Positions 3,092-19,525 of a stretch of 20,419 bases of DNA are shown here, piece by piece. The notes under the pieces are model-generated. The model was not told where the DNA came from and ran no database searches. It saw nothing but the letters and a program-made list of their open reading frames with translations. Position numbers and translations under genes: made by a program. Source of the DNA: a virus; the IMG/VR virus record IMGVR_UViG_3300038418_000438, positions 1-20,419 of that record, one strand, 5' to 3'. Each line of letters opens with the position of its first letter. The first letter of the stretch is position 1.

Positions 3092-3201
3092 GTTCAAGGT
3101 TCAAGGTTCGAGGTTGCCCCTTTGGGGCGTTCAAGGTTCTATGTTCAATGTTCAAGGTTGAAATCCTCTCTTTCCCCAACCTTGAACCTTGAACCTTGAA
3201 C
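3092..3201. repeat. Intergenic palindromic heptamer element
   Basis: This fills almost the whole gap between the two fibre genes. GTTCAAR heptamers run rightward, broken by a GC hairpin (GCCCC TTT GGGGC, 3116-3128). More heptamers follow, then a pyrimidine joint (about 3157-3178), then CTTGAAC heptamers in reverse orientation up to 3201. The two arms could pair over 20-30 bp as DNA cruciform or RNA hairpin. The downstream ribosome binding site AAGGAGG (3202-3208) follows at once. Confidence 0.85.
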
Positions 3202-5450: not shown

Positions 5451-5715
5451 GAGAGCAGGGAGCAGGGAGCAGAGAACAGCAGAGAGCATGGAGCCCGCGC
5501 CTGCGGCGCTCCGGAGGATAGAGATGTTCAAGGTTCAAGGTTCGAAGTTCGAAGTTTTAAAAAGGCGGGGTTTTAACCTTGAACTTTGAACCCTGAACCT
5601 TGAACATCTCTGAACCCTGAACCTTGAACATCCCTCATCCCTGAACCCTGAATCTTGAACTTTGAACATCCCTATAGTAAAATGAACCTTGAACTTTGAA
5701 CATTGAACCTTGAAC
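5451..5715. repeat. Largest heptamer repeat cluster
   Basis: This accounts for most of the 400-bp gene-free stretch between 5325 and 5740. Bases 5451-5494 are AGCAGAG/AGCATGG-type heptamers (family 2, reverse sense). After a GC-rich joint, 5525-5555 carries rightward GTTCAAR/GTTCGAA heptamers. An A/G-rich spacer (about 5556-5573) follows, then at least six blocks of leftward CTTGAAC heptamers to 5715, separated by short linkers (ATCTCT, ATCCCT). The leftward arm is much longer than the rightward one, as if expanded. Frames through it encode only low-complexity peptides and are not credible genes. Confidence 0.85.
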
Positions 5716-6512: not shown

Positions 6513-7586
6513 TTAAGGCTTTTTGGAAGGGTCGTCTTTTTCGCGTTGTCCACCGTTGTCCACGGCTTCTCGCTCGTAGGCCTCCGCGAGGCGTTTCGAC
6601 GCCTGCCGCTTCTTCTTCATCGTGACCTGCGCGTACCACTGGGTCTGCTCGATGTCGAGATGCCCGAGGAGTTCCTGAACGGTCCTGATGTCCGTATCCT
6701 CCTCGAGGTGATGCGTGGCGTTTGAATGACGCAGGAGATGCGGGTAGACGCGCTTGGTAATACCCGCTTTTTTTGCGAGGGTCGTAAGCGACTTGTTCAT
6801 GCGTTTGACCGGCTTCCCCGTCTGCCTGTTGAGAAAAATGAATCCCTCCATCCTGGCGGGGGCGATGGCGTGAAGCCACTCCAGCACGATCGCGGGCACC
6901 GGCTCGATGCGCTGACGGTTTCCCTTCCCCGTCACCCTGATCACCCCGGCTTCCCGGTCCAAGTCATCCCATTCCGCCTGATTGACCTCCTGGCGCCTAA
7001 GGCCCACGAAGTACAGCAGGCCGAAGTACGCTTTCTGGCGGGGTCCAGCCTTCGACAAAAGCTTGACGACCTCGCCAATTGAGAGGACAAGGGGGACCGG
7101 CCTGCTTGCGGACAGCCGCTCGATGGCAAGGGGCTTCAGATCGGGATAGAGGCTGTTCTTACACCACCGCCGGAAGCCGGAGAACCAGGAAAGCTCTTTG
7201 TTAATGGTGCGGTTCTTGACGCCCTCTGCCTTTCTTGCGGCCTTGTAGAGATCTATGTAGGCAGTGCTGATCGTGACGACCTCTATGTTCCCCAGGTGTT
7301 GCCCGAAGTGCTTCCCGACCGTTTCTATGTCGGCTGCGGTGCTGGGCAGGCGGTTCACCCGCGCGTAGGCGACGTACTGCGGCCAGAGGTCGTTGATCGT
7401 GGATCCACAGGGCTCCGAAGCGACAAGGCCCTTTTCCTCCTTTTGCCCCCTGATCGTCCTTTCCCAGGCCCTCGCCTGCTCTTCGGTGTCGACGCCCGGT
7501 GGGAGACGGAGCCGGATTCTTTTCCCGCGCCGGCCATCGGGGTAGTAGTCGACGTAGTAGGAGCCTTTGCGAAGGATAATGGCCAT
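6513..7586 (-). CDS. int: Tyrosine-family site-specific integrase
   Basis: 357 residues from ATG 7586. An upstream in-frame start at 7646 would overlap the previous gene and lacks support. The N-terminus (AIILRKGSYYVDYYPDGRRG) is an arm-binding-type three-strand domain. A SAM-like core-binding domain follows (about 60-155), then the catalytic domain with R197 (GLRRQE), K221 (TGKGN), H283-R286 (HLLRH), H309 (LLGH) and nucleophile Y318 (QTQWY). It directs integration at the adjacent tRNA-type core, only 3 bp beyond its stop codon. It starts one base after the stop of the upstream exported-protein gene and has no Shine-Dalgarno of its own, so translation is probably coupled. Its 3' end encodes two tandem 10-bp arm-like repeats, which become VDNGGQ in the protein. 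Confidence 0.95.
   Translation of the reverse strand: MAIILRKGSYYVDYYPDGRRGKRIRLRLPPGVDTEEQARAWERTIRGQKEEKGLVASEPCGSTINDLWPQYVAYARVNRLPSTAADIETVGKHFGQHLGNIEVVTISTAYIDLYKAARKAEGVKNRTINKELSWFSGFRRWCKNSLYPDLKPLAIERLSASRPVPLVLSIGEVVKLLSKAGPRQKAYFGLLYFVGLRRQEVNQAEWDDLDREAGVIRVTGKGNRQRIEPVPAIVLEWLHAIAPARMEGFIFLNRQTGKPVKRMNKSLTTLAKKAGITKRVYPHLLRHSNATHHLEEDTDIRTVQELLGHLDIEQTQWYAQVTMKKKRQASKRLAEAYEREAVDNGGQREKDDPSKKP
6544..6563 (+). other. Tandem putative integrase arm-type sites (P' arm)
   Basis: CGTTGTCCAC occurs twice in a row with an exact 10-bp period, about one helical turn, inside the 3' end of the integrase gene. A third copy lies about 180 bp away beyond the tRNA-like core. Distances of 35-100 bp from the core fit arm-type sites of lambda-class integrases. 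Confidence 0.55.
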
Positions 7587-7587
7587 G

Positions 7588-7968
7588 TCAGGGGCTGATA
7601 TACTCGCGGGGCACGTAACCGGCCCGACCCTGCATCCCGCCCTCAAGGATTCTGATTTTTCTCACACCCAGTGCCCCATAATCGATCACTAACACCCTTG
7701 TGCCGTTATTAACGGTGAATATCAGGCCAGCCTGCATCAGATGGAATTGACCATAGTTGTCATTGGCCCCTCTGGCTTTTTGCCATTTGTCGAAAGCGTC
7801 CTCGGTTGCGGCTACCGCGACAAGGCTCCCTCCCTGGACCATAAGCCGACCCTGCTGCCCAATGGGCACGCTCGGTTGATCGTCAATACAGCCACATGTG
7901 AGCCATGACAAGCAAATCAATATCGCCGCTAAGGCGAGGGCTTTCCTGGGTAATAATTTACGCTTCAT
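7588..7968 (-). CDS. Small exported protein, possible lipoprotein, in lysogeny operon
   Basis: 126 residues; ATG 7968 has GGGGTGAG just upstream. The N-terminus is a signal sequence: MKRKLLPRK, then a hydrophobic core ALALAAILICLSWL and TCGC, whose C27 could be the lipidated Cys though the lipobox is atypical. The mature part has beta-rich segments, and the end (KIRILEGGMQGRAGYVPREY) resembles an SH3-like fold. It lies between repressor and integrase, where phages often keep genes expressed in lysogeny. A superinfection-exclusion or other lysogenic-conversion role is plausible but is inference from position and export only. Confidence 0.65.
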   Translation of the reverse strand: MKRKLLPRKALALAAILICLSWLTCGCIDDQPSVPIGQQGRLMVQGGSLVAVAATEDAFDKWQKARGANDNYGQFHLMQAGLIFTVNNGTRVLVIDYGALGVRKIRILEGGMQGRAGYVPREYISP

Positions 7969-10787: not shown

Positions 10788-10912
10788 CAGCAGAGAGCAT
10801 AAACATGTTCAAGGTTCAGGGTTCAAGGTTGAACATCGAACAGCCCTTTGCTCCAGAGCGAGCGCAGCGAGCGTGCTTCCTTTGCTCCATGCTCTCTGCT
10901 CTATGCTGCTTT
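10788..10912. repeat. Nested compound heptamer palindrome
   Basis: The outer arms are family 2: AGCAGAGAGCATA (10790-10802) is nearly the reverse complement of CATGCTCTCTGCT near 10888-10900, with more GCTCTATGCT copies to 10910. The inner arms are family 1: GTTCAAGGTTCAGGGTTC rightward (from about 10806) then GTTGAACATCGAAC leftward. A GCGAGCGCAGCGAGCG tract lies on the right side. This is the clearest nested case. A plus-strand frame through it (from 10756) is probably not a gene. Confidence 0.8.
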
Positions 10913-11590: not shown

Positions 11591-12190
11591 ATGAAAATGG
11601 CTAAGAAGTCCCCGGCCCCGGCCGGTGATACAATTACTATCCCGGCGCTCAATATCGAGGTGATGATGATAAGGATCGTGGGCGATTCTCCTCTTATTTG
11701 CCACGCATGGAGTCCCAAGGCAAAAAAGGAGATGCTCGACAAGCAGATGAAAAAAGCCAAGGCCCCGAAGGAGGCCAAAGACCCGCAGAAGGACTTCGAA
11801 GAGTCTCTTTATCGGCGACCTGATGGTGGATATGTCTTTCCGGCGATTGCTTTCAAGGCCGCCGCGGTCGATGCATGCAGCCACGTGGCCGACGTTACGA
11901 AGGTCCTGGCAAGGGGCGCCTTTCACGTCGTGGGCGAGTGGGTAGAGATCGAGGGCGAGCCGAGGATGCGGGAGGATATGGTAAGGATAGGGCTCGGCAC
12001 GGCTGACCTTCGGTATCGTGGCGAGTTTCCCACCTGGTGCGCCAAGGTGACAGTAAGGTACAACAGAAACGTCCTGTCCGCCGAGCAGATCGTCAGCCTT
12101 TTCAACACGGCTGGTTTCGCGATAGGCATCGGCGAATGGCGCCCGCAGAAAAACGGGGGCTTCGGAATGTTTCACGTGGAGATGAAATAG
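11591..12190 (+). CDS. Conserved uncharacterised phage protein (GIGEWRP motif)
   Basis: 199 residues; ATG 11591 has AGGAG about 8 bases upstream, and the longer frame from 11528 overlaps the cysteine-rich gene. Clear landmarks are GDSPLICHAWSPKAKKEMLD (about residues 29-48), a Lys-rich linker KKAKAPKEAKDPQKDF, FPAIAFKAAAVDA, MREDMVRIGLG, DLRYRGEFPTW and AGFAIGIGEWRPQKNGGFG. I recognise this order from a widespread phage family in recombination/replication regions, but know no demonstrated biochemistry. The 175-bp pentamer tract begins about 20 bp after its stop codon, and a link between the two is worth testing. Confidence 0.7.
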   Translation: MKMAKKSPAPAGDTITIPALNIEVMMIRIVGDSPLICHAWSPKAKKEMLDKQMKKAKAPKEAKDPQKDFEESLYRRPDGGYVFPAIAFKAAAVDACSHVADVTKVLARGAFHVVGEWVEIEGEPRMREDMVRIGLGTADLRYRGEFPTWCAKVTVRYNRNVLSAEQIVSLFNTAGFAIGIGEWRPQKNGGFGMFHVEMK

Positions 12191-12208
12191 GATTCGACCA
12201 GCGCTTGG

Positions 12209-12384
12209 TTAGGCGGGGCAAGTCACGGCAAGGCTGGGCCCGGTAGGGCCGGGCAGGCAAGGCGAGGCTGGGCTTGCGAGGCAGGCTGGGTATGGCGAGG
12301 TATGGCAGGGCATGGTCGGGCTCGGCAAGGCAGGCCAGGCACGGCAAGGCGCGGCCAGTCAGGGCATGTTGTGGCAGGGCGAGG
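12209..12384 (+). repeat. Degenerate GGCNN pentanucleotide tract
   Basis: About 175 bp in which nearly every 5-bp step begins GGC or GGT (GGCAA, GGCTG, GGCGA, GGTAT and so on), with a few one-base slips. The plus strand is G-rich with very few T or C runs, and a T6 run (12385-12390) ends it. No plus-strand gene fits; minus-strand frames translate to low-complexity Pro/Leu/Ala peptides. It fills the whole 220-bp gap between the conserved gene at 11591 and the second recombinase. The period of 5 is not a multiple of 3, so it is not selected as coding sequence. Confidence 0.85.
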
Positions 12385-12412
12385 TTTTTTAAATTCATGA
12401 CGGGGGGCGCTC

Positions 12413-13030
12413 ATGAAGCAGGACTGTACCAAGAGTAAAGCGGGCACGAATTATTTGAGACAGGCTGAAGAGAAGACGTTTTTTGCTTTCCTCAAGAACC
12501 GGAAGGACCGGCAGGCCGAGAGAGACTTCGTGCTCCTGGAACTGTGCCGGCTCACGGCCCTCCGGAGGGGGGAAGCGCTTGCCCTTAACGTCGGCCACGT
12601 CGCCGGAAAGGAAAAGATCGTGGTCGACGCGGTGGTCGCCGAAAAGGGCGCTATCGGCGAGGTCCTGATCTGTAAGCAGTTGCAGGAGATAATTTCCCGG
12701 TTCATGAGGCTCAAGCGCGCCTGGCGCGAGTCTCTGGAAGACGATGCGCCCCTCTTCGTGAGCAGGAAGGGCCGGCGTCTTTCCCTGCGGGCGTTCAACG
12801 ATATCATGGACAAATGGTGTGCACTCGCGGGCATCCCCCGCTACACGCCCCACGCGCTGAGGCACACGAAGGCAAGGCGGGTCTTGGACGACGTGAAGCA
12901 CCTGAGCCCCGAGGAGCAAAGGAAGGCCCTGCTCTTCGTGAAGAAGCAGCTCCGGCACAAGTCGCTCAGCGCGACCATGGTCTACACGCAGCCGACGAAG
13001 GAAGAAATGGCGAAGGTAGCGGAGATATAG
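12413..13030 (+). CDS. Tyrosine recombinase, catalytic domain only
   Basis: 205 residues from ATG 12413, with a G6 run about 5 bases upstream. All catalytic landmarks are present: R51 (ALRRGE), likely K78 (AEKGA), H147-R150 (HALRH), H182 (LRHKS) and Y191 (MVYTQP). The N-terminal arm-binding and most of the core-binding domain are missing; full XerC/D-like enzymes are about 300 residues, while FimB/FimE-type enzymes are near 200. It is separate from the attP integrase and lies in the early region beside a repeat tract. Possible jobs are resolving replication products, inverting a segment, or acting as a DNA-binding accessory. No inverted site pair was identified with certainty. Confidence 0.8.
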   Translation: MKQDCTKSKAGTNYLRQAEEKTFFAFLKNRKDRQAERDFVLLELCRLTALRRGEALALNVGHVAGKEKIVVDAVVAEKGAIGEVLICKQLQEIISRFMRLKRAWRESLEDDAPLFVSRKGRRLSLRAFNDIMDKWCALAGIPRYTPHALRHTKARRVLDDVKHLSPEEQRKALLFVKKQLRHKSLSATMVYTQPTKEEMAKVAEI

Positions 13031-13197: not shown

Positions 13198-13247
13198 GGA
13201 TGTTCAAGGTTCAAAGTTCGAAGTTCAAAGTTGGGGAAAAAGAGGAT
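13184..13247. repeat. Left half of a split compound repeat element
   Basis: AGCATGGAGCATAG (family 2) then rightward GTTCAAGGTTCAAAGTTCGAAGTT heptamers and the usual purine joint (GGGGAAAAAGAGG). In other copies the leftward arm follows directly; here a gene-sized segment intervenes and the leftward arm is at 13697-13734. Confidence 0.75.
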
Positions 13248-13696: not shown

Positions 13697-13734
13697 GGTT
13701 TTAACCTTGAACGTTGAACATCGAACATTGAACA
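13697..13734. repeat. Right half of the split compound repeat element
   Basis: GGTTTTAACC then leftward CTTGAAC/GTTGAAC/ATCGAAC/ATTGAAC heptamers, complementary to the rightward arm at 13203-13236 once the enclosed gene is removed. Confidence 0.75.
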
Positions 13735-14080: not shown

Positions 14081-14158
14081 AGATGTTCAAAGTTCAGGGT
14101 TCAAGGTTTTAAAAAAGACGGAGGTTTAACATTGAACATTGAACATAGAACCTTGAAC
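14049..14158. repeat. Compound heptamer palindrome
   Basis: Family 2 (AGCAGAGAGCACAGAGCAGA onward) lies inside the end of the previous gene. Family 1 follows: rightward GTTCAAAGTTCAGGGTTCAAG (from 14085), spacer TTTTAAAAAAGACGGAGG, then leftward ATTGAACATTGAAC to 14158. The arms pair over about 20 bp. Confidence 0.85.
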
Positions 14159-14179
14159 AAACGCAAGGAGGAGGGAACG

Positions 14180-14896: not shown

Positions 14897-15103
14897 AGCA
14901 GCATGGAGCAAAGGGCTGTTCAAGGTTCAGGGTTCAAAGTTCAAGGTTCAAGGCTCGGAAAAGAGAGGGTTTTAACATTGAACATTGAACATCGAACTTT
15001 GAACGGCTCTGGATGTTCAAGGTTCAGGGTTCAAGGTTCAACGTTGAAAAAAGAGGGGGGTTTTTAACCTTGAACATTGAACATCGAACATCGAACATTG
15101 AAC
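14897..15103. repeat. Two tandem compound heptamer palindromes
   Basis: The first unit: AGCAGCATGGAGCAAAGG (family 2), rightward GTTCAAG/GTTCAGG/GTTCAAA, joint AAAAGAGAGGG, leftward ATTGAAC/ATCGAAC/TTTGAAC to about 15003. A linker GGCTCTGGAT follows. The second unit has rightward heptamers from 15014, joint AAAAAAGAGGGGGG and leftward heptamers to 15103. Most of the 220-bp gap is filled by them. Confidence 0.85.
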
Positions 15104-15336
15104 AGTTTACGATCGACGAGCTTCTCGATCGGGACGAGGCCCTGCTCAGGCAGTGCCGGTCCTGCCGCTATCTCATATCCATCCAGGAGATTTCATACCT
15201 CCAGGTCCGCGTTGACGATGACGTGGAGTGCAGCAAGGTCGAGCAGGGCGACCGCGCTTTCATCATTTACAAGGGCGATGGCCGCTGCACCCGCCATGCA
15301 CCAAGGCTGGTACTCATTCGGGGGGGGGCAGTGTGA
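15013..15336 (+). CDS. Small Cys-containing protein with repeat-encoded 5' end
   Basis: 107 residues if ATG 15013 is used, but the first 30 or so residues are translated heptamer repeat. An in-frame TTG at 15070 lies 9 bases after a G6 run in the repeat joint and may be the true start (88 residues). The real body is FTIDELLDRDEALLRQCRSC then RYLISIQEISYLQVRVDDDV, DRAFIIYKGDGRCTRHAPRL. A CxxC pair (CRSC) and a later Cys suggest a small metal site. Its TGA overlaps the GTG start of the DNA methyltransferase, which supports translation. Function unknown; it may be a partner of the methyltransferase. Confidence 0.5.
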   Translation: MFKVQGSRFNVEKRGGFLTLNIEHRTSNIEQFTIDELLDRDEALLRQCRSCRYLISIQEISYLQVRVDDDVECSKVEQGDRAFIIYKGDGRCTRHAPRLVLIRGGAV

Positions 15337-19420: not shown

Positions 19421-19525
19421 AAACAGCCGTTATGGGAATGTTCAAGGTTCAGGGTTCAACGTTGAACATCGAACGTCGAACCTTGAACAGCTCTTTGCCC
19501 TCTTCCCCCACCCGGGAGGCAGTGT
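19407..19525. repeat. Heptamer element flanked by 12-bp direct repeats
   Basis: GGGAGGCAGTGT occurs at 19407-19418 (end of the ASCH gene) and again at 19514-19525 (ribosome binding site of the next gene). Between them lies a heptamer palindrome: rightward GTTCAAGGTTCAGGGTTCAA (from about 19440) and leftward CGTTGAAC/ATCGAAC/CTTGAAC to about 19488, then CTCTTTGCCCTCTTCCCCCA. The layout looks like an insertion with target-site duplication. Confidence 0.7.

Follow-up and report, generated by a model that had tools for sequence, protein, structure and literature searches.

A Vipr-family RAMP gene and an adjacent GGYNN repeat array form a predicted VIPR locus in an uncultivated phage

The window, meaning the whole 20.4 kb virus record analysed here (20,419 nucleotides), carries on its plus strand a GG(C/T)NN array of about 36 units with a period of five, and 16 nt separate the start of this array from the end of an intact reading frame on the same strand. 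The array terminates in GGTTTTTT, and the T-run that follows it reaches position 12390. The coordinates of these and other features are collected in Table 1. A second viral contig (L122) has an identical copy of the gene together with a tract of equal GGYNN score; megablast comparison of the window with the phage collection gave no matches. The window also contains many short, mostly intergenic arrays of 7-bp repeats (of the GTTCAAG/GTTCAAA, AACCTTG/AACATTG and GCTCTAT/AGCAGAG types), which often occur as facing pairs with the potential to form stems and have no sequence relationship to the GGYNN array.

Table 1. Features of the window, with predicted guide modules M0 to M3
Feature	Coordinates	Strand	Description	Evidence
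vipr	11591..12190	+	199 aa RAMP protein, phrog_4652	profile, AlphaFold2 model, fold match
vrRNA array (predicted)	12207..12384	+		period-5 statistics, GGYNN score 150, unit parse, conserved vipr association
Putative guide module M0	12207..12255	+	NN = TA GG AA AC AA TG CC AG CG	
M0 end	12252-12255	+	closing GGCA; 9 full units	border predicted from delimiter
Putative module M1	12256..12283	+	GGCAA GGCGA GGCTG GGCT TGCGA GGCA; short, irregular	array parse
Putative guide module M2	12284..12332	+	NN = TG AT GA AT AG AT CG TC AA	
M2 end	12329-12332	+	closing GGCA; 9 units	predicted border
Putative guide module M3	12333..12382	+	NN = CA AC AA GC CA AG AT GT AG GA; 10 units, then GGTTTTTT	array parse; predicted border
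Tyrosine recombinase	12413-13030	+ (same as array)	205 aa, confined to the catalytic domain	Pfam Phage_integrase E=7e-18
Integrase	6513-7646	-	separate, longer	
7-bp arrays, first set	1766-1852, 3092-3201, 5526-5715, 10807-10907, 13202-13232			
7-bp arrays, second set	13703-13734, 14085-14159, 14918-15104, 19440-19489			

The period-5 tract, which had been pointed out in an earlier note on this DNA, is real, and both its self-match and its scan score lie far beyond those of shuffled sequence. Over the interval marked in that note the self-match at lag 5 is 0.55, against 0.325 +/- 0.034 in 2000 dinucleotide-preserving shuffles, and that at lag 10 is 0.58 (z 7.4); neither value was matched by any of the 2000 shuffles. 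In a cyclic GGYNN scan the array scores 150, compared with 20.7 for the second-best site in the window and a maximum of 22.6 over ten shuffled windows. The core of the unit is mostly GGC or GGT with a few instances of GTC or GTT, the step size is 5 nt except for a handful of 4-nt steps, and the NN pairs in the unit parse are near-random and without duplication. The G-rich strand asymmetry that the same note described is equally real (85 G, 40 C, 30 A and 21 T in 176 nt of the tract). A tandem-repeat scan of the window found no repeat-spacer array, the hallmark of class 1 CRISPR-Cas, with period 5 standing alone at the locus, and neither a sigma-70-like promoter nor a terminator hairpin was found beside the array.

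The gene upstream of the array encodes a Vipr-family RAMP protein. Its product matches phrog_4652 in PHROGs (E=3e-32), as do all 81 of the aligned family members; Pfam gave nothing consistent for the family. A search of the PDB with a profile of 81 family members returned chain 36pp_D, annotated 'SUSP1 Vipr protein', at E=3.3e-36, and a single-sequence search against SUSP1 Vipr aligned the C-terminal third only (E=6.7e-5). It was through the profile search that the VIPR identity was traced; a search of the literature under ordinary terms for pentanucleotide or pentameric phage repeats yielded nothing useful. The gene has an intact reading frame, and its product was modelled with confidence by AlphaFold2 (pLDDT 96); the model matches the Csm3/Cas7 RAMPs with a Foldseek E of 9.4e-7 and superposes on them over 150 residues at 3.3 A with a Z of 11.9. 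The function of phrog_4652, which is unassigned in PHROGs, is now tied to VIPR.

VIPR (Viral Interference Programmable Repeat) has been described in Escherichia phage SUSP1 and in a Pseudomonas fulva prophage, and is summarised here from a 2026 preprint (PMC13142463; PDB 36pp). As presented there, the system is composed of Vipr, a RAMP protein, and vrRNAs of alternating GGY and NN that are about 9-16 repeats long; the Vipr proteins bind the vrRNA transcript, and the NN pairs read double-stranded DNA with one target base skipped, in a contest between competing phages. Silencing by Vipr and vrRNA is reported, with vap1 only enhancing it, and vap genes, of which there are six families, are described as typical and not obligatory. 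Types I to VII are defined, the vrRNAs of type II having an invariable structured 3' tail, and VIPR is proposed to predate CRISPR, as a weapon of phage against phage (PMC13142463).

Both core sequence hallmarks of VIPR, a Vipr protein and an adjacent GGY/NN array, are present in the window, and we are highly confident that the locus is a phage-encoded VIPR system with the tract as its vrRNA guide array. As far as sequence and fold go, this assignment is secure; expression, guide borders and targets are what we infer for this phage. By analogy with VIPR, in which the NN pairs are information, the variable pairs of the window array are not noise, and the two variable bases of each repeat probably spell the DNA of rival phages that is to be silenced. 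The kind of system has been known since 2026, and the window locus is a new member from an uncultivated phage.

The tie between tract and neighbouring gene that the earlier note had anticipated is found in other phages as well. In 48 of 52 viral loci recovered solely by homology to the window's vipr gene (the protein-first set), a GGYNN tract lies no more than 1.3 kb from the gene, always on the gene's strand. Two of the remaining four are contigs that end about 500 nt past the gene, and the other two are AT-rich loci (36% GC) with a GTTNN version of clear period 5. Beyond 1.3 kb, the protein-first loci hold one GGYNN tract in 356 kb of flank. When viral contigs were searched instead with the bare pattern (GGCNN)6GGC, at least 120 loci were recovered; the gene family is present in 83 of the 120 matches listed, adjacent to the tract in all 83 and on the same strand in 78, and the 37 gene-less matches among those listed are a mixture of arrays at contig edges, arrays for which no gene was recognised, such as L002 and L061, and plain microsatellites. 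Gene and tract also occur together in Gordonia phages ODay and Pipp, Mycobacterium phage Donkeykong and cyanophage Cy-LDV1. Protein and array are thus tightly linked in 130-odd related loci, across phages of very different hosts. The earlier note was right to read selection on the GGC core as opposed to recent slippage, and right to assign the tract to the neighbouring gene.

The arrays of two AT-rich phages (36% GC; L170:6660-6930 and L171:4665-5040) have a GTT/GGT core with period 5 kept, which suggests that the conserved core shifts as base composition changes. A further gene was detected by profile beside vipr in 47 of the 52 protein-first loci; this conserved gene of 160-190 aa (phrog_15946; L123:6618-7100, with homologues in 74 other loci) is a probable vap, and no homologue of it was found in the window.

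Three of the 4-nt steps in the window array are identical, consisting of GGCA followed by GGC, a step that the earlier note missed and that related arrays also show as a delimiter. Parsing 187 distinct tracts into unit steps gave 9691 steps of five bases, 790 of four and 182 of six; GGCA accounts for 488 of the 790 four-base steps, and the next word is mostly GGC. Of 388 spacings from one GGCA to the next, 64% are 9-13 units long, compared with 18% when positions are permuted, and spacings of six units or fewer are depleted (8% observed, 43% permuted). The punctuation can be seen by eye in Rhizobium leucaenae (L178), a Hyphomicrobiales MAG (L179) and Lachnospiraceae A2 (L180). From these sequence patterns we infer that the GGCA|GGC step marks where one guide ends and the next begins, and that the window array comprises about four guides, of which one is decayed. 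Between the predicted borders M0, M2 and M3 have 9-10 five-base units, in keeping with the clade mode of 9-13 and compatible with the published 9-16 repeats per vrRNA; M1 is shorter, and is probably decayed or partly deleted.

The array parse showed no constant sequence between modules that might be compared with the type II 3' tail, and an Rfam search of the window returned zero families, hammerhead included, albeit a result that is uninformative for vrRNA tails. We think the chances evenly balanced that in the unusually compact VIPR arrays of this clade the guides abut and the one-base contraction at GGCA|GGC is their sole border, which would amount to punctuation by phase shift. The step is perhaps a processing site, or a point at which Vipr filaments start or stop, and the figure of 'staggered arrays' in the preprint may already cover it. 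If the step is a guide border, single guides can be excised on sight, leading to testable predictions of their targets. Long GGCA-punctuated arrays are also present at L002:2558-3326 (157 units) and L061:10549-10898 (70 units) without a recognised Vipr-family gene in the sequence examined; these are either orphan arrays or arrays with a very divergent Vipr.

The array of Rhizobium leucaenae, a relative from a named genome whose Vipr is 57% identical to that of the window, served as a test of the code, and targets for its guides were sought with the published one-base skip in 148 genomes of its genus. Expected counts were obtained by simple arithmetic that assumed equal base frequencies over about 2x10^9 positions. 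For the 22-letter guide 5 there are two matches at 20/22, in two genomes, against about 0.25 expected and none with a reversed control; both lie in codon phase within a prophage portal gene, which in the prophage examined is adjoined by genes for the prohead protease, major capsid and large terminase. Guide 2 (18 letters) matches at 18/18 in one genome, where 0.03 exact matches are expected, and at 17/18 in two, all of them codon-phased and in one homologous gene of unassigned function; there was one further, unrelated one-mismatch match, and a two-base-skip control gave two unrelated one-mismatch matches and zero exact ones. For guides 5 and 2 the matching units are exactly those between the GGCA marks. 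For guide 1 there are 17/18 matches to a single gene family in two genomes, one of them the genome that carries the array; its matches in two other genomes (G117 and G118) were discarded as chance, being antisense to an apparent real gene. The gene in R. leucaenae that matches its own guide 1 at 17/18 letters (L203:1501-1526; G001:C57:10726-10751) could be a tolerated self-mismatch. In-frame candidate targets were found for three of three guides, in one array, at loose stringency and with one clearly phage gene among them, and these matches support the view that the published one-base-skip rule holds in the window's clade. The guide that points to a prophage portal gene is an example of how a target may be predicted from a guide.

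For the window's own guides, searches of viral contigs gave no credible targets. Exact nine-unit searches returned two matches for M0, one for M2 and none for M3, where simple arithmetic predicts about one or two by chance. The two M0 matches represent one 2-oxoglutarate-oxygenase-like gene of AT-rich phages and are out of codon phase, and the single M2 match (L181) lies at a phage contig end where all three frames of the strand are open and phase is uninformative. Eight-unit searches of viral contigs returned seven matches for M3 and two for M2; some of those for M3 are codon-phased and, among those checked, none extends into the remaining units, and the second M2 match lies outside any sense reading frame. 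Compared with the window itself the guides gave no match (best 13 of 18 to 20). With 645 pooled guides and 1.6 Mb of collected loci, which are not expected to contain targets, matches at the one-base skip showed no excess over those of shuffled guides.

Several other readings of the locus were considered. The VIPR system could be decayed or inactive, with vipr intact, the array partly degenerate and the accessory gene lost, as the irregular M1, the missing homologue of the usual neighbour gene and the lack of targets found would suggest. We consider this unlikely, although not negligible, given that the vipr frame is intact and its model confident, that M0, M2 and M3 are normal in length and core, and that Vipr and vrRNA reportedly silence with vap1 as a mere enhancer (PMC13142463). 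The tyrosine recombinase, which lies directly 3' of the array on the same strand while the usual accessory gene is missing, might be imagined as a novel accessory in an RNA-guided recombination system. This reading is extremely improbable: among the loci compared, the window shares the recombinase with L122, its identical copy, and with no other relative, and the presence of the gene beside the array looks incidental.

A very small probability also attaches to the tract being a DNA site bound as such by the neighbouring protein, whether as an iteron-like or replication-start array, an R-loop, a G-quadruplex or a site of single-strand annealing. The G-rich plus strand and the position of tandem repeats beside an early-region phage gene agree with it, and the shared strand of gene and tract in nearly all loci would fit an R-loop, but the fold of the protein is that of an RNA-guide-binding RAMP, each repeat varies strongly at two bases without losing phase, GGCA divides the arrays into modules of guide length, and AT-rich members lose the GG run required of a G-quadruplex while keeping period 5. 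The earlier note's proposal of a binding array for the adjacent protein (its GIGEWRP protein, here Vipr) was close in spirit, except that the published relatives bind the vrRNA transcript and not the DNA tract; for the same reason its alternatives of an annealing site, a replication start or a G-quadruplex are not the best reading of a tract beside a RAMP protein of the Csm3/Cas7 fold. That the tract is a protein-coding repeat or a plain microsatellite made by slippage can be practically dismissed: long minus-strand ORFs do overlap it, and some pattern-only matches (L020 and L093, with one or two NN types) are plain microsatellites, but a 5-base period returns to one frame only every 15 bases, the NN pairs are near-random, and the tract accompanies vipr across very divergent phages.

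For the preferred reading, a VIPR system, a mechanism can be proposed by extension from SUSP1 and Pseudomonas fulva. The array would be transcribed into vrRNAs, and Vipr subunits would assemble along each of them at the GGY positions. The NN pairs would then base-pair with double-stranded DNA, one target base, usually the codon wobble base, being skipped per repeat, and binding would presumably silence genes of competing phages or prophages.

The window locus resembles the SUSP1 and P. fulva systems in its homologous RAMP of about 200 aa, in being phage-borne, and in having a same-strand GGY/NN array in the gap beside the gene; the one-base skip also gives in-frame candidate targets, as seen in the window's Rhizobium relative. 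It differs from them in that its Vipr belongs to a distant clade, and its predicted guides abut without obvious tails, are punctuated by GGCA and are accompanied by no recognised vap. With the Csm3/Cas7 proteins of type III CRISPR-Cas it shares a fold and probably also assembly along a guide RNA, whereas the window has no repeat-spacer array, and its guide would be a 5-nt tandem repeat that is read non-contiguously.
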